Positions 27,280-33,100 of a stretch of 64,000 nucleotides of DNA are shown here, in pieces; within the stretch, counting starts at the first letter, position 1; the number at the start of each line of letters is the position of its first letter. Both the position numbers and the translations under genes were made by a program. The notes under the pieces were generated by a model that was not told the origin of the DNA, searched no databases, and saw nothing but the letters and a program-made list of their open reading frames with translations. The stretch is taken from assembly GCF_000813965.1 (NCBI RefSeq), contig NZ_JWLI01000001.1, forward strand, positions 372,001 to 436,000, given 5' to 3'. The DNA is from Leisingera sp. ANG-M7 (lineage in GTDB: Bacteria; Pseudomonadota; Alphaproteobacteria; Rhodobacterales; Rhodobacteraceae).

Positions 27280-27834
27280 ATGGAAGGTTTCACAATTATC
27301 GACGGGGTCGTGGCCCTGGTCATCGTGGTATCGGCGCTGCTGGCCTATTCGCGCGGTTTCGTGCGCGAGGCGATGGCGATTGCCGGCTGGATCGCCGCAG
27401 GTGTTCTCGCCTTCATCTTCGCGCCGCAGGTGGAACCGCTGATGGCGGAAATCCCGGTGATCGGCGACTTCATCGCCGACAGCTGCGAGCTTTCGATCAT
27501 TGCTGCCTTTGCCGCGGTGTTTGCCCTGGCGCTGATCGTGGTCTCCTTCTTCACGCCGCTGTTTTCCACCCTTGTGCAGCGTTCTGCACTTGGCGGGCTG
27601 GATCAGGGGGCCGGTTTCTTCTTCGGCGTCCTGCGCGGCATTCTTCTGATCGCGATTGCCTTCTTCCTCTATGATGTGGTGATGACCGGGCAGAGCTTCA
27701 CAATCGTTGACGAAAGTCGCTCTGCCGAGGTGTTCGAGCGCCTGACAGGCAAGATCGAAGAGCGCAATCCCGAGCAGGCCCTTGGCTGGGTGACGCAGCA
27801 ATATGAGGCACTGATCGGGGCCTGCGGCCAGTAA
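27280..27834 (+). CDS. cvpA: CvpA family membrane protein
   Basis: 184 residues with four membrane segments. It starts MEGFTIIDGVVALVIVVSAL and has AYSRGFVREAMAIAGWIAAG near 25-44 and GALDQG-like GGLDQGAGFFFGVLRGILLI near 105-124, the CvpA signature. CvpA is linked to colicin V production and envelope stress in enterics; the precise role is unknown. In many proteobacteria cvpA directly precedes purF; here purF is 3.7 kb further on. A terminator follows at 27867. Confidence 0.92.
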   Translation: MEGFTIIDGVVALVIVVSALLAYSRGFVREAMAIAGWIAAGVLAFIFAPQVEPLMAEIPVIGDFIADSCELSIIAAFAAVFALALIVVSFFTPLFSTLVQRSALGGLDQGAGFFFGVLRGILLIAIAFFLYDVVMTGQSFTIVDESRSAEVFERLTGKIEERNPEQALGWVTQQYEALIGACGQ

Positions 27835-27866
27835 TTCCTAAGGATTACCACCTTCAGACAGATACG

Positions 27867-27891
27867 CGGGCGTCCATGGGGCGCCCGTTTT
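27867..27891 (+). terminator. Terminator after cvpA
   Basis: CGGGCG (27867-27872) pairs with CGCCCG (27882-27887), followed by TTTTGC. A short but GC-only stem at the end of the dnaB-to-cvpA run. Confidence 0.7.
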
Positions 27892-27917
27892 GCTTGAAAT
27901 TCAATGCGTTCACACAG

Positions 27918-27926
27918 TTATCCACA
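27918..27926 (+). promoter_or_regulatory. DnaA box
   Basis: TTATCCACA, a perfect match to TTATNCACA, 38 bases before the CtrA site at 27964. The pair recalls CtrA/DnaA-coregulated promoters. Confidence 0.5.
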
Positions 27927-27963
27927 GGATGCGGCGGGTAGCCGTTAACACCGCAAATTCACA

Positions 27964-27979
27964 TTAACGCTTTGTTAAC
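27964..27979 (+). promoter_or_regulatory. CtrA-binding site, full consensus
   Basis: TTAACGCTTTGTTAAC equals the consensus TTAA-N7-TTAAC. Further TTAAC words occur at 27948 and about 28069. The likely target is the Hint-domain gene at 28222. Confidence 0.65.
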
Positions 27980-28221
27980 CAAAGAGAATCGGACTTCTAA
28001 GGCCGATAGGTCGCGTCTCAAAAATTGCGTCAATCCTTAATAAATCCTCAGCCCGCACCGTAAAAAGGTTAACAATACCCCTGAAAACGCAGTTTTTGTC
28101 CCCAAAAAATCGCCTCATCCCGAAATGCGACGCACCCCTGCCCCAATTTGGTCCCAATTCGGGGGCCACATGGCTTCAACGGCAAAACGCCGGGACGAAG
28201 ACGCTCAGAAGGGACGCTACA

Positions 28222-28902
28222 ATGCAGCTGGATCACACCACAGATTTCGCCGACTACCTGCCGGTTGACGTGCTGCTGCTGACCAATCCCCTGCCGCAAT
28301 CCCTGAAGCCCGCGCCCAAGCGTGCCCGCATCCGCAGCGGCGGCTTCCTGCCCGATACGCTGGTGGAGACCGAAGAAGGCTTCAAGCAGGCCCGCGACAT
28401 CAAGCCCGGCGACATGGTGTTCACCTTTGACGGCGGTGCCCAGGAAGTGAAGGCGGTGAAACACGCGGTTCCGCGTCTGACCACCCTGATGCATATTCCG
28501 GCGGGTGCCCTGGGCAATGACACCGATCTGATGCTGCCTTCGGACCAGAAAGTGGCGCTGGAGATGGAGACCGCGGAACGCCTGTTCGGCCTGCCGGTTG
28601 TCGTCGCCAAGCTGATCGCCCTGGCTGGCTACAAGGGTATCACCGCGGCCGCGCCGGAGCGCCTGGGCCGCATCCATTTCGAATTCGCAGAAGAAGAACT
28701 GGTCTGGGCCGAAAGCGGCATGCTGCTGCCCGCGGGTGATGCCGTTGAGGGCTCCGCCTTCCACCAGTTGTCGCTGACCGAGACCCGCCAGGTGCTGGCC
28801 AGCGATGAAGGCCGCGCGCTGTCGCAGACCGGCATGGGCGAGATTGACGCCCGTCTGCCCAGCCCGCTGGATAACCTGCTGGACCGCATCCTGGCGGCCT
28901 GA
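28222..28902 (+). CDS. Degenerate Hint-domain protein
   Basis: 226 residues. The stretch GGFLPDTLVETEEGFKQARD then KPGDMVFTFDGGAQEVKAV copies the Hint (hedgehog/intein) pattern CFxxGTxIxTxxG...GDxVxTxDxG, but the nucleophile Cys is Gly, and the downstream SPxHR motif reads LPSDQK. Self-cleavage should be lost, so it may be a regulatory or structural relic. The N-terminal 35 residues are unique. ATG 28222 has GAAGGGACG upstream; the frame extends to 28096 without support. It is preceded by CtrA and DnaA sites and followed by a terminator. Confidence 0.78.
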   Translation: MQLDHTTDFADYLPVDVLLLTNPLPQSLKPAPKRARIRSGGFLPDTLVETEEGFKQARDIKPGDMVFTFDGGAQEVKAVKHAVPRLTTLMHIPAGALGNDTDLMLPSDQKVALEMETAERLFGLPVVVAKLIALAGYKGITAAAPERLGRIHFEFAEEELVWAESGMLLPAGDAVEGSAFHQLSLTETRQVLASDEGRALSQTGMGEIDARLPSPLDNLLDRILAA

Positions 28903-28940
28903 TCCAAGGGCTAGCCAGCAAGACATTCCCTCCCCCCTCG

Positions 28941-28970
28941 GGCCCGCCTTTGTGCGGGCCTATTCTTTTT
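28941..28970 (+). terminator. Terminator after the Hint gene
   Basis: GGCCCGC (28941-28947) pairs with GCGGGCC (28954-28960), followed by TATTCTTTTT. Confidence 0.85.
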
Positions 28971-29153
28971 GCTGCCCGGATAGGCGGGAAAGGTTCCGCC
29001 CCGGGCGTCTTCGCGGAAATGCGGAACGCCCGTTCCAAACGCAAGGGCATTTCCGGAAAAAGTTGCCCGGAAAATATATGTATGCCAGCATCCCCTCAGG
29101 CGCCAAAGGCACCGCAGAGCAACCGGCGCCCGGTATTCAGGGAGGATTTGACG

Positions 29154-30554
29154 ATGAACTTGCGGCCTGACCCAACATTTCACGCAACACCCAAACTGGC
29201 GATGGAGGCCCCAGCGGAAAAGCTGGCGTTCACGCTGATGCTGAGCCCGGATTTTTCGCAGCCGGACGGGCTGGCGGTGGTCGATGTCGACCCGGGTTCA
29301 GATACCTATGGCCAGATCGTTCATCAGCTGATCATGCCCAATAAGGGCGATGAGTTTCACCATTTCGGCTGGAACGCCTGCTCCTCCTCCCTGTCGCCTC
29401 TGTCGGGCCACGCGTTCCTGGAGCGGCGCTACTTGATCATTCCGGGCATCCGCTCCAGCCGGATCTATGTCGTGGACGTGAAGGAGCCGCTGAAGGCGAA
29501 GATCCACAAGATCATTGAGCCGGAGGAAGTTTTTGCCAAGACCGGCTACTCGCGCCCGCACACCATCCATTGCGGCCCCGAAGGCATCTATGTCTCGACC
29601 CTGGGCGGCGGCGGCGAAGACGGCACCGACGGGCCGCCGGGCATCTTCATCATGGATTGCGAAACCTTCGAGATACTGGGCCGCTATGAAATGGACCGCG
29701 GCAAGCAGGACAAGCACTATGATTTCTGGTGGAACCTGCCGCGCGATTACATGGTGAGTTCCGAATGGGGCCTGCCGCCGCAGTTTGAGAACGGCATCGT
29801 GGCGGAGGACCTGCTGAGCAACAAATACGGCCATTCGATCCACTTCTGGAACCTGCGCCAGCGCAAGAACGTGCAGACCATTGACCTGGGCGAGAACCAC
29901 CAGATGGCGCTGGAAATCCGCCCGGCGCATGATCCCTCACGCGATTACGGGTTCTGCGGCGTGGTGGTGGACACCACCAACCTGCAAGGCTCGATCTTCA
30001 CTTGGTGGCAGAAGGACGATGGCACCTTTGAGGCCAAGAAGACCATCACCATCGACCCGCGACCGGAGAAGGCCGAAAACCTGCCGCCGCTGTTGCAGGG
30101 ATTCGAGGCGGTGCCGCCCTTGGTCACCGACATCGACCTGAGCCTGGACGACAAATACCTCTATGTCGCTTGCTGGGGCTTGGGCGAGATGCACCAGTAT
30201 GATGTGAGTGACCCGATGAACCCCACGCTGGCCGGCAAGGTCGAGCTTGGCGGCATCGCGCGCGGCGCCAAGCACCCGAACGGCAAGGATTTCGCCTATG
30301 GCCCGCAGATGGTGGAGATCAGCCGCGACGGCAAGCGGGTCTACTGGACCAACTCGCTCTATTCCACCTGGGACGATCAGTTCTATCCCGATGCCGTGGG
30401 CGGCCAGATGGTGATGGCCAATGTCGGCGAAAACGGCGGACTGGAGCTGGATAAGGACTTCTATGTCGAACTCCCCGAGGGCTACCGGAGCCACCAGATC
30501 CGGCTGGAAGGCGGCGACTGCTCCACCGACAGCTTCTGCTATCCCTCCGTCTGA
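29154..30554 (+). CDS. mtoX: Methanethiol oxidase / selenium-binding protein 56 family
   Basis: 466 residues, full length for the SBP56 family, whose bacterial members oxidise methanethiol to formaldehyde, sulfide and hydrogen peroxide with a copper centre. Family blocks are WNACSSSLSPLSGHAFLERR near residue 69, SRPHTIHCGPEGIYVSTLGG near 137, HYDFWWNLPRDYMVSSEWG near 190, YGHSIHFWNLRQRKN and, at the end, EGGDCSTDSFCYP. In roseobacters methanethiol comes from DMSP demethylation. ATG 29154 follows CAGGGAGGATTTG. No Sec or Tat signal is visible, although some characterised forms are periplasmic. Confidence 0.9.
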   Translation: MNLRPDPTFHATPKLAMEAPAEKLAFTLMLSPDFSQPDGLAVVDVDPGSDTYGQIVHQLIMPNKGDEFHHFGWNACSSSLSPLSGHAFLERRYLIIPGIRSSRIYVVDVKEPLKAKIHKIIEPEEVFAKTGYSRPHTIHCGPEGIYVSTLGGGGEDGTDGPPGIFIMDCETFEILGRYEMDRGKQDKHYDFWWNLPRDYMVSSEWGLPPQFENGIVAEDLLSNKYGHSIHFWNLRQRKNVQTIDLGENHQMALEIRPAHDPSRDYGFCGVVVDTTNLQGSIFTWWQKDDGTFEAKKTITIDPRPEKAENLPPLLQGFEAVPPLVTDIDLSLDDKYLYVACWGLGEMHQYDVSDPMNPTLAGKVELGGIARGAKHPNGKDFAYGPQMVEISRDGKRVYWTNSLYSTWDDQFYPDAVGGQMVMANVGENGGLELDKDFYVELPEGYRSHQIRLEGGDCSTDSFCYPSV

Positions 30555-30557
30555 CGC

Positions 30558-31217
30558 GTGGCAGAGATCAGCACGGCGGCGGCCCTGTGGGGGGCCGTCG
30601 CGCTTTCGGGCGTCTATCACGGAGTGAACCCCGGCATGGGCTGGCCGCTGGCGGTCTCCGCGGCGCTGATGGAGCGCGCGCAGGGCAGCCTGTGGCGGGC
30701 CCTGGCCGCGCTGGCGGCGGGGCATCTTCTGGCGATGGCAGCGGTGCTGTTTCCGTTCTCGATGCTGCTGGTGCTGGCCGAATGGCAGCGCGAAATCCAG
30801 ATCGGCGCCGCCTGCCTGGTGATTGCGCTGGGGCTGTATCTTCTGTGGAACCGCCGCCACCCGCGCCTGCTGGCCCGCGTGCCGCCGTCGCGGCTGGCGC
30901 TGTGGTCCTTCCTGGCGGCGATGGCGCATGGTGCCGGGCTGATGCTGGTGCCGATTTACTTGGGTCTATGCGCCACGGTGGAAACAGATGCCGGACACGC
31001 CGCCGCAGGGGCACTAATGACCGGCACTGCAGGCATCGCCATACTGGTCGCGCTGGCCCATACGCTGGCGATGACGCTGGCGGGCGGTGCCATCGCCTTT
31101 GGCGTCTATCACTGGCTGGGGCTGAAGTTCCTGTCCCGCGGCTGGTTCAACCTGGATCTGGTCTGGGCGCTGAGCCTGGTGCTGGTTGGCGCAGTGTCGC
31201 TGCTGACGCTGCATTGA
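30558..31217 (+). CDS. Polytopic membrane protein coupled to mtoX
   Basis: 219 residues, about six membrane segments. GTG 30558 starts three bases after the mtoX stop. Histidines recur at membrane-segment ends: YHGVNPGMGWPLAVSAAL near 21-38, AAGHLLAMAAV near 53, MAHGAGLMLVP near 121, and ALAHTLAMTLAGG near 169. The layout recalls the NicO/UreH/DsbD-like transporter superfamily, where such histidines bind metal, but I cannot place it firmly. Coupling to the copper enzyme suggests metal supply or export of a product. No maturation genes of SCO1 or MauG type are nearby. Confidence 0.8.
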   Translation: MAEISTAAALWGAVALSGVYHGVNPGMGWPLAVSAALMERAQGSLWRALAALAAGHLLAMAAVLFPFSMLLVLAEWQREIQIGAACLVIALGLYLLWNRRHPRLLARVPPSRLALWSFLAAMAHGAGLMLVPIYLGLCATVETDAGHAAAGALMTGTAGIAILVALAHTLAMTLAGGAIAFGVYHWLGLKFLSRGWFNLDLVWALSLVLVGAVSLLTLH

Positions 31218-31579
31218 TTGCAGCGGCGCGCCCTGCCCGCATATTCGGCAAACCGCCCCTATTGCCGCAGCGCAGAAGGGAAATGTGATCCTTTGATGAC
31301 AGACGCCGCGAAAGCCTCTATGTGAGGGCGCGAACAGGAAACGGATTCGGAGCCACACCGCCTTGCCGCTGCTGCAGACGCTGCCCGCCTGCCCTTGTGG
31401 ACCTGACCTGATGCGCGCGGCGCCGGGTTGCGGGACTGCAAGCGGCCATCAGGCTCCGGACGTTTTGCCGGCCAGCTGCTTTGGCGCCTCCGGAATGGCG
31501 CGGGCGCGCAAAAATGCGCTAGACTGCCGGCCAAGCCGCTTCCATCAGCCATCGGACTAATCGGGATTGGAGCCAGCCA
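31218..31579. other. Intergenic region upstream of purF
   Basis: 362 bases. I see no gene, riboswitch fold or repeat. A few short inverted repeats are normal for this G+C. It should carry the purF promoter. Confidence 0.4.
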
Positions 31580-33100
31580 ATGTGCGGGATTTTGGGGATC
31601 GCAAGCCGGGACACGGAAGTCTTTGCAGAGATTTATGACGGGCTTCTGATGCTGCAGCACCGCGGCCAGGACGCCTCGGGCATCGTGACTTACACCGGCG
31701 AGTTCTTCCGCGAGCGCAAGGCGAACGGCCTGGTCAAGGATGTGTTCGGGCCGTCGGATGCGGAAACCCTCACGGGCCGCGTCGGCATGGGCCATGTGCG
31801 CTACCCCACCGCGGGCTCCCTCAGCGCCGCAGAGGCACAGCCGTTCTTTGTGAACGCGCCTTACGGCATCTACCTGGTCCACAACGGCAATATCACCAAC
31901 ACCGCCGAGCAGCGCGAAAAGGTGACCGGCAAATACAGCCGCCATCTGCGCACCACCTCCGATTCCGAAATTCTGCTGAACGTTCTGGCCGACAAGGTCG
32001 CCGATGCGATCAAGGTCAATGGCAACGCCGAACCGATCCGCAACATCTTTGCCGGTGTGAAGATGACCATGGAGCGGGTGCAGGGCGCCTATTCGGTGCT
32101 GTGCATGATTGCCGGCGTCGGCATGCTGGCCTTCCGCGACCCGCATGGCATCCGGCCGCTGTCGCTGGGCAAGCGCCCGGCACAAGGCGAAGGCGACGAT
32201 TACTGCATTGCGTCTGAGGACGTGGCCTTTGGCATCAACGGCTTTGAGAAGGTCCGCGATGTGAAGGCAGGCGAGGCGGTGCTGATCGACCTGGACGGCA
32301 ACCTGCATACTTTCCAGGCGGTCGAGGGCAAGCTGACGCCCTGCATCTTTGAATATGTCTACCTGGCGCGCCCGGACTCGATGATGGATGGCGTTTCGGT
32401 CTACAAGACCCAGCTGCGCATGGGCCAGGCGCTGGCCAAGCAGATCCAGGAGTCAGGGCTCGAAATCGACAGCATCATCCCGGTGCCTGATTCGGCCCGC
32501 CCCGTGGCGCTGGAAGTCGCCAACTCCACCGGCATCCGCTACCGCGAGGGGCTGGTGAAGAACCGCTACGTCGGCCGCACCTTCATCATGCCGGGCCAGG
32601 CCGAGCGTCAGAAATCAGTGCGCCGCAAGCTCAACGCGATCCCGCTGGAGTTCAAGGACCGCAACGTGCTCCTGATCGACGATTCCATCGTGCGCGGCAA
32701 CACCATCAAGAAGATCGTTCAGATGTGCCGCGAGGCCGGCGCCAAGAAGGTCTATATCGCCTCTGCCTCGCCGCCGGTGGTCTATCCCAACGTCTATGGC
32801 ATCGACATGCCGACCAAGCACGAGCTGATCGCAAACGGCCTCAGCATCGAGGAAATCCGCGAGGAGCTGGGCGCCGATGCGCTGTTCTACCAGAAACTCG
32901 AAGACCTGATCTGGGCGGCGCAGGAAGGCAACCCGGACATCCAGGGCTTCGATTGCTCCTGCTTTGACGGCAACTACATCACCGGCGTCACCGAAGAGTA
33001 CCTGGCGGCTCTGGAAGGCAGCAGCCGGGTCAGCGCCAAGATCCAGGACATGCCCGCACCGGGTGCCTCTTGGAACGCCTCCAAGCTGGCGACCGGCTGA
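31580..33100 (+). CDS. purF: Amidophosphoribosyltransferase
   Basis: 506 residues. First step of purine synthesis: glutamine amide nitrogen is moved to PRPP. The sequence starts MCGILGIASRD, so Cys2 is the glutaminase nucleophile after Met removal and there is no propeptide. Glutaminase blocks are GHVRYPTAG and HNGNITN. The PRPP motif is VLLIDDSIVRGNTIKKIVQM near residue 364-383. Four cysteines that bind Fe-S in the Bacillus-type enzyme are not evident as a set. Usually beside cvpA; see the split noted in findings. Confidence 0.97.
   Translation: MCGILGIASRDTEVFAEIYDGLLMLQHRGQDASGIVTYTGEFFRERKANGLVKDVFGPSDAETLTGRVGMGHVRYPTAGSLSAAEAQPFFVNAPYGIYLVHNGNITNTAEQREKVTGKYSRHLRTTSDSEILLNVLADKVADAIKVNGNAEPIRNIFAGVKMTMERVQGAYSVLCMIAGVGMLAFRDPHGIRPLSLGKRPAQGEGDDYCIASEDVAFGINGFEKVRDVKAGEAVLIDLDGNLHTFQAVEGKLTPCIFEYVYLARPDSMMDGVSVYKTQLRMGQALAKQIQESGLEIDSIIPVPDSARPVALEVANSTGIRYREGLVKNRYVGRTFIMPGQAERQKSVRRKLNAIPLEFKDRNVLLIDDSIVRGNTIKKIVQMCREAGAKKVYIASASPPVVYPNVYGIDMPTKHELIANGLSIEEIREELGADALFYQKLEDLIWAAQEGNPDIQGFDCSCFDGNYITGVTEEYLAALEGSSRVSAKIQDMPAPGASWNASKLATG

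Follow-up and report, generated by a model that had tools for sequence, protein, structure and literature searches.

An SBP56-family oxidase gene and a four-histidine membrane-protein gene form a pair in Leisingera sp. ANG-M7 and many other bacteria: a candidate metal-handling module

We observed that an SBP56-family gene in Leisingera sp. ANG-M7 is followed, three bases on, by a gene for a membrane protein with four conserved histidines, and that the SBP56 enzyme and the membrane protein form a widespread module. As the two genes adjoin in nearly all related genomes examined, the membrane protein probably acts as a helper dedicated to the SBP56 enzyme, most likely by handling the metal of that enzyme. 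We give roughly even chances to a more specific reading, a dedicated module in which a cytosolic copper-type SBP56 oxidase would be served by a NicO-like membrane carrier, the cargo of which would be a soft metal and probably Cu(I); the carrier role, the metal, the inward direction and the cytosolic place of the oxidase are all predictions. SBP56 enzymes, which remove methanethiol, are found in hosts ranging from archaea to humans. To our knowledge, it is not known how a cytosolic copper enzyme of the SBP56 type acquires its metal or hands on its electrons.

The gene pair and its SBP56 enzyme

The pair was examined in a window of 64,000 nucleotides, which is the whole stretch of DNA that was analysed; the genome comprises 4.58 Mb in 58 contigs. 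The features of the pair are as follows.

29140 to 29146, + strand: GGGAGGA, ribosome-binding site of the SBP56 gene, the sole upstream stretch common to the window and 16 other loci in an alignment
29154 to 30554, + strand: SBP56-family gene of the leaderless cluster 1 methanethiol oxidase type, 466 amino acids, stop TGA, assigned by PF05694, phmmer and Cys/His motifs
30555 to 30557, + strand: intergenic gap CGC of 3 bases, read from the sequence; other loci have gaps of a few bases, mostly 3
30558 to 31217, + strand: four-histidine membrane-protein gene, 219 amino acids, GTG start, stop ending at 31217, supported by the open reading frame, an AlphaFold2 model, and 140 distinct SBP56-linked and 16 distinct DUF899-linked homologues

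The start of the SBP56 gene was placed at 29154 because of the conserved GGGAGGA-type ribosome site upstream. No ribosome site of its own was visible before the GTG at 30558, so the two genes are probably translationally coupled. In the 17 loci, no upstream regulatory motif was seen besides the ribosome site, and a promoter scan gave nothing exceeding chance. A terminator-like stem at 28940-28961, closing the upstream unit, was weak (3 such sites, against 1.9 in shuffled sequence).

A Hint_2 gene lies directly before the pair and a CvpA gene before that, with a RadA-like ATPase gene also upstream, and a PurF-like gene is the next gene after the membrane-protein gene. Neither SCO1/SenC nor MauG was found among the immediate neighbours on both sides. 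CvpA-like and PurF-like genes commonly adjoin each other. In the window, the pair and the Hint_2 gene sit between them (27280-33100), and the pair may have been inserted there. The nearest named relative was Leisingera sp. SS27, at 98 per cent over the membrane protein (GTDB search, best 80 of 461).

The SBP56 protein matched PF05694 at 581 bits (Pfam cut-off 34) over residues 4-462, and matched the Sulfolobus SBP56 structure (PDB 2ece) with a phmmer E-value of 2e-168. Its score against the NCBIfam MtoX model NF052453 was 105.3 bits, far under the 650-bit equivalog cut-off. On this score it is not a canonical periplasmic mtoX, from which it also differs in having no SCO1 or MauG neighbours. 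The original prediction had described an mtoX gene with a membrane gene three bases on; the layout was as described, while the first gene belongs to SBP56 but not to mtoX. Its remark that mtoX usually neighbours SCO1 and MauG holds for the periplasmic mtoX clade and does not carry over to the clade of the window.

Judged by its sequence, the window's SBP56 is of the leaderless 'cluster 1' methanethiol oxidase type, with a predicted activity. Cluster 1 is marked by three conserved cysteines in the motifs GWNACS, HTV(I)HC and GGDCS(T), according to the sections covered of PMC10936201. We found all three in the window's SBP56 as GWNACS, HTIHC and GGDCST (Cys76, Cys140 and Cys456). The motifs match those of the Rhodobacteraceae cluster 1 enzymes (RlMTO, RdMTO), and the 76/140/456 numbering matches that of RlMTO, which was compared by its published motifs rather than by alignment (PMC10936201). 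RlMTO, expressed in Escherichia coli, converted methanethiol to sulfane sulfur; RlMTO and RdMTO were assayed alone, and the sections covered of that paper describe no membrane partner (PMC10936201).

The window's SBP56 also has putative copper-site residues, namely His69, His70, His136, His139, His447 and Glu254. All were invariant in the 151 distinct SBP56 proteins of the three clades defined below, except for His70 (150/151). In human SELENBP1, the activity of which is copper-dependent, an HxxH motif, a Glu and an Asp have been proposed as copper ligands (PMC10362175, in part), and, on our reading of the motifs, the His and Glu residues of the window's enzyme appear to match these. Copper dependence has been reported both for the human and worm SBP56 enzymes (PMC10362175) and for the MtoX of Hyphomicrobium (PMC5739008), in the parts of these papers covered. 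The periplasmic MtoX of Hyphomicrobium sp. VS and Ruegeria pomeroyi shares with the window's enzyme the SBP56 fold family and the conserved putative copper histidines (PMC5739008, in part). Unlike periplasmic MtoX, however, the window's SBP56 is only about 25 per cent identical to the loci of that clade, has no leader by eye, and has a membrane-protein gene next to it. As its N-terminus, MNLRPDPTFHATPKL, showed no hydrophobic leader when judged by eye, the window's SBP56 is probably cytosolic.

Pairing across genomes and a second soluble partner

The surveys of pairing covered GTDB (the best 80 of 461 loci), plasmids (8 of 33 records) and samples at the class and phylum level. Among 61 relatives, 25 carried SBP56 and 22 carried the membrane gene, with SBP56 directly upstream in 22/22 (one cut by a contig end). 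The same arrangement was seen in 80/80 GTDB loci (the best 80 of the 461 found), three of these being cut by contig ends. Both counts bear out the predicted coupling of the two genes, for which co-occurrence had been proposed as the check. On plasmids, SBP56 was upstream in all 8 regions opened of the 33 matching records (6 by annotation, 2 by tblastn). The hosts were Rhizobium, Phyllobacterium, Pararhizobium, Azospirillum, Cupriavidus, Caballeronia and Rhodobacter, and the flanks varied among the opened records. Where annotated, the membrane gene is labelled 'hypothetical protein' in these records.

In the phylum sample of 398 genomes, the membrane gene was carried by 31, beside SBP56 in 28 and beside a DUF899 gene in 3. 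SBP56 exceeded the cut-off in 35 genomes, of which 28 had the pair. The seven without it comprised one with a clade iii SBP56, one with a clade ii SBP56 (G765), four with low-scoring matches in the mtoX range and one with a weak match in a frame of 1972 residues.

These clades were obtained by grouping the 151 distinct SBP56 sequences by their identity to that of the window (i, at least 68 per cent; ii, 48-68; iii, 33-48), excluding pieces shorter than 340 amino acids and the low-scoring mtoX clade. The membrane gene was present in 120/120 of clade i, 19/20 of clade ii and 0/11 of clade iii. As the search for the membrane gene had favoured clade i, the phylum sample gives the fairer figure, in which 28 of the 29 genomes with an SBP56 of the two nearest clades had the membrane gene. 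In all 11 distinct cases of clade iii, a 2Fe-2S ferredoxin gene was directly downstream of SBP56, and at one locus of the mtoX-like clade (L048) SCO1/SenC adjoins, a neighbour already published for mtoX-like genes (PMC5739008, in part).

Two deviant forms of the SBP56 gene were also seen. The equivalent of Cys456, the proposed catalytic cysteine of GGDCS, was Ala or Ser in 8 of the 20 distinct clade ii proteins (e.g. L059-L063), and the membrane partner was retained; this puts a universal role of that cysteine in question. In a genome without the membrane gene, an SBP56 gene about 40 per cent identical to that of the window was broken into two frames with internal stops (G034:C51:27533-28865; L046, L051).

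Counting all 225 membrane-gene loci, repeats included, SBP56 was directly upstream in 205, a DUF899 gene in 20, and neither in 0. It had been stated beforehand that a wide occurrence of the membrane protein without mtoX would speak against the coupling; these counts did not refute it, as no partnerless locus was seen, although the 20 DUF899 loci lack SBP56. The distinct membrane-protein sequences numbered 140 for the SBP56-linked and 16 for the DUF899-linked loci. A further 23 loci (14 distinct sequences) were kept outside the residue tally by partner; by their place, they are repeats of DUF899-linked genomes already counted. Eight plasmid rows (A2) were also dropped.

In the 20 loci (16 distinct sequences) of membrane-gene carriers without SBP56, the DUF899 (PF05988) gene is immediately upstream and on the same strand. 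As with SBP56, the relatives of the membrane protein are thus directly downstream, although the soluble partner is unrelated to SBP56, and M27 and most of helix 6 are missing. In the family of genome G761, DUF899 was strongly matched in 11 genomes, and 10 of these carry the membrane gene. The DUF899 proteins linked to the membrane gene have a CxxC motif, and a Cys-Cys tail in 15 of the 16 distinct sequences, the sixteenth ending in Cys-Gly-Cys; among DUF899 genes without the membrane gene, 1 of 7 had such a Cys-Cys tail. DUF899 proteins have been described as thioredoxin-like (PMC3091736, in part).

Upstream of the DUF899 pairs, we observed a small beta-propeller gene in 7/15 loci and, in 10/15, a regulator-like gene whose helix-turn-helix matches were weak and fell short of the cut-off. 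The order of small beta-propeller, DUF899 with the Cys-Cys tail and four-histidine membrane protein can be seen as an operon at L222:6980-9939, L223:6520-8609 and L380:3053-5130.

The membrane protein and its remote relatives

The membrane protein is hydrophobic and has roughly six helices. Its AlphaFold2 model (mean pLDDT 74.8, pTM 0.68) contained six long helices, two short ones and a turn helix of 4 residues. The conserved residues are encoded as follows.

30618 to 30620, + strand: codon of H21, motif HGVNPGMGW; His in 140/140 SBP56-linked and 14/16 DUF899-linked sequences
30636 to 30638, + strand: codon of M27, corresponding to the second ligand His in NicO; Met in 140/140 SBP56-linked and 0/16 DUF899-linked sequences
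30723 to 30725, + strand: codon of H56, motif GHLLAM, on the GH of NicO in the alignment; 140/140 SBP56-linked, 15/16 DUF899-linked
30927 to 30929, + strand: codon of H124, motif HGAG; 140/140 SBP56-linked, 14/16 DUF899-linked
30969 to 30971, + strand: codon of C138, a near-invariant Cys in the loop after helix 4; 134/140 SBP56-linked, 16/16 DUF899-linked
31059 to 31061, + strand: codon of H168, motif AHTLAM; 140/140 SBP56-linked, 16/16 DUF899-linked

Eight residues (H21, P25, M27, W29, H56, H124, H168 and W196) never varied in the 140 distinct SBP56-linked sequences, and C138 was the one cysteine held by the conserved columns. In the 16 distinct DUF899-linked sequences, M27 was absent from all (9 T, 3 S, 2 N, 1 G and 1 gap in that column) and helix 6 was missing from most. 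The six spans and the four histidines of the original prediction were thus recovered, but its placing of the histidines at segment ends agrees with the model for H21 only, at the end of helix 1; H56, H124 and H168 are modelled within long helices.

An Arg-rich stretch at residues 99-112 is suggestive of a cytosolic position for the loop joining helix 3 to helix 4. On this basis, H21 and M27 would lie near the inner face and H56 and H124 at mid-membrane, whereas H168 and C138 would be closer to the outer face; the model has a pLDDT below 50 at residues 134-143. At L061:2887-3531 and L062:2887-3537, the loop in which C138 usually sits is Met/His-rich instead (MKMGEAGHGAYHGGH), which also suits a metal carrier.

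We found no family match to the membrane protein in Pfam or NCBIfam. When 29 members were searched up to an E-value of 10, only scattered weak hits were obtained (e.g. one member against CadD at 0.017), with none to the NicO family (PF03824). A PDB sequence search with the membrane protein gave nothing useful, and a Foldseek search of the PDB with the model gave no match at E <= 0.001, its best rows, VMAT2 and BbZIP, being taken as noise.

Profile comparison pointed to NicO. With hhalign, in which each E-value refers to a single comparison, the 81-row alignment of the membrane protein matched NicO with a probability of 78 at E 1.9e-5 when 24 NicO rows were used, and with one of 62 at E 7.3e-5 when 10 were used. 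The first half alone (helices 1-3) matched at 2.4e-5. Reversed controls gave 0.084 and 0.39, and none of 100 block-shuffled NicO profiles reached the real score in either of two trial sets. The RcnA-like NicO subset (19 rows) was weaker (E 0.0024, probability 12), and the second half did not match NicO (E 0.097). HupE/UreJ (PF04955) was rejected as closer kin (E 0.085, with 12/100 shuffles equally good), as were DsbD_2 (0.031) and DsbD (0.067).

In the alignment, H21 and M27 coincide with the first and second signature His of NicO, respectively, and H56 with the GH in its helix 2. The membrane protein shares with the NicO transporters (PF03824, RcnA, NiCoT) the HG-x-x-P-G motif where helix 1 is broken, as well as the GH of the second helix. 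However, it lacks their long His-rich loop and its second half cannot be aligned; the NicO signature HxxxxxH, two His six residues apart, does not occur in it, as the second is Met in 140/140 SBP56-linked sequences. The NicO of the same genome was also modelled (pLDDT 69.7, pTM 0.54), and its order of long, short, long and long helix, seen twice, is similar in the membrane protein. As judged from these profiles, the membrane protein is a remote relative of NicO over helices 1-3. An internal duplication, seen by eye in the repeated HG ... H-x-LAM, was unsupported: the first half matched the second at an hhalign E of 0.028, and the reversed control was better, at 0.0032.

Structure comparison with VIA placed CcdA (5vkv) at the top for the membrane-protein model (Z 6.8, rmsd 4.0, 180 residues aligned), with unrelated rows tied at 6.4 and 6.3. 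With the NicO model, CcdA was third (Z 7.7), behind RNF (8.6) and MntH (8.5). These Z scores are too low for VIA to settle the fold. CcdA and DsbD carry a redox cysteine pair within the membrane. Although a membrane thiol carrier of this kind gave the best VIA row, the membrane protein has neither a conserved cysteine pair nor a profile match to this group.

A candidate copper carrier and its rivals

In the mechanism that we favour, a cytosolic, copper-type SBP56 oxidase would oxidise methanethiol with O2, yielding formaldehyde together with either sulfane sulfur or sulfide. In this scheme, the membrane protein would be a small carrier of the NicO/CcdA type, with two halves of three helices, in which the four conserved histidines, Met27 and Cys138 may together form the lining of a soft-metal path, with Cu(I) as the most likely metal. 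The carrier would thereby bring copper to, or take copper from, an oxidase that has no SCO1 or MauG neighbours. Copper supply would fit best, given the remote similarity to NicO, the conservation of His, Met and Cys, and, by analogy, the copper dependence of the SBP56 enzymes studied. Copper is the likeliest cargo because those enzymes need it, because Met and Cys join the histidines, and because the DUF899 partners bear CxxC and a Cys-Cys tail, which suit the handling of a soft metal. The DUF899-linked forms speak against the carrier reading, since none retains M27 and 1-2 of the 16 are without H21, H56 or H124.

RlMTO and RdMTO were active when made in E. coli without a membrane partner (PMC10936201, in part), which shows that activity does not strictly depend on the membrane protein. 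The carrier would therefore matter at copper shortage or for copper control. More tentatively, and as less likely than not, we propose that the membrane proteins are a new NicO-like family in which the second nickel-ligand His has given way to Met. The family would have become dedicated to carrying Cu(I) for a cytosolic enzyme, and would have been swapped between the unrelated SBP56 and DUF899 partners.

The chief rival of the metal-carrier reading is a role in electron transfer, in which the four histidines would ligate haem b or form the frame of a quinone site, and electrons would pass between SBP56 or DUF899 and the quinone pool. Four conserved histidines in the membrane are consistent with this, as are the thioredoxin-like nature ascribed to DUF899 (PMC3091736, in part), the ferredoxin gene downstream of every distinct clade iii SBP56, and the top VIA row, since CcdA is an electron carrier. 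That row, however, is tied with unrelated ones, and the conserved Cys pair that CcdA needs is absent. H21, at a helix end beside a Pro-Gly break, would be in an unusual place for haem, and the profile similarity is to NicO instead of a cytochrome, with no Pfam cytochrome match. We give this role a small but real chance.

We consider it improbable that the membrane protein is a transporter for a substrate or product, which could be formaldehyde or a sulfur compound (thiol, sulfane sulfur or sulfide). Folds of the DsbD/CcdA type do include carriers with very different cargo, and DUF899 could, like SBP56, act on thiols, but DUF899 is not known to share the products of SBP56, and invariant His and Met residues typify metal sites. 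Sulfane sulfur and formaldehyde are indeed products of SBP56 (PMC10936201, in part), but methanethiol and H2S pass membranes unaided (for H2S, the same paper). A membrane anchor or assembly factor, merely docking its soluble partner without transport, would account for one membrane family with two unlike soluble partners, always directly upstream; yet the conservation lies in the membrane histidines and the Gly/Pro motifs and not in the loops, and we regard this as highly improbable.

The literature searched, partly read and including PMC10277263 (most subscription papers lie outside it), contained no account of the gene pair, the membrane family or the DUF899 link. The pairing gives a lead to function for 'hypothetical' proteins in SBP56-bearing genomes, and it sets this clade apart from mtoX, which is relevant to surveys that use mtoX as a marker. 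If the more tentative reading, a new family of NicO-like Cu(I) carriers, is true, it would provide a metallation route for a cytosolic bacterial copper enzyme, and each SBP56 clade would have one type of helper: SCO1/MauG, a ferredoxin, or a four-histidine carrier.

The ferredoxin arrangement itself, in which a gene for a 2Fe-2S ferredoxin (Fer2) comes after an SBP56 gene of the 40-per-cent clade, was seen at L226:5559-7735, L227:7554-9803, L228:5698-7893 and L229:1371-3316. In L226-L228, the ferredoxin is followed by a gene with the length and start of a CoA_binding_2 protein (the Pfam match being on L226 only), and most of the SBP56 proteins of L226-L229 begin with a motif resembling Cys-Cys-Gly-Pro-Gly-Tyr.
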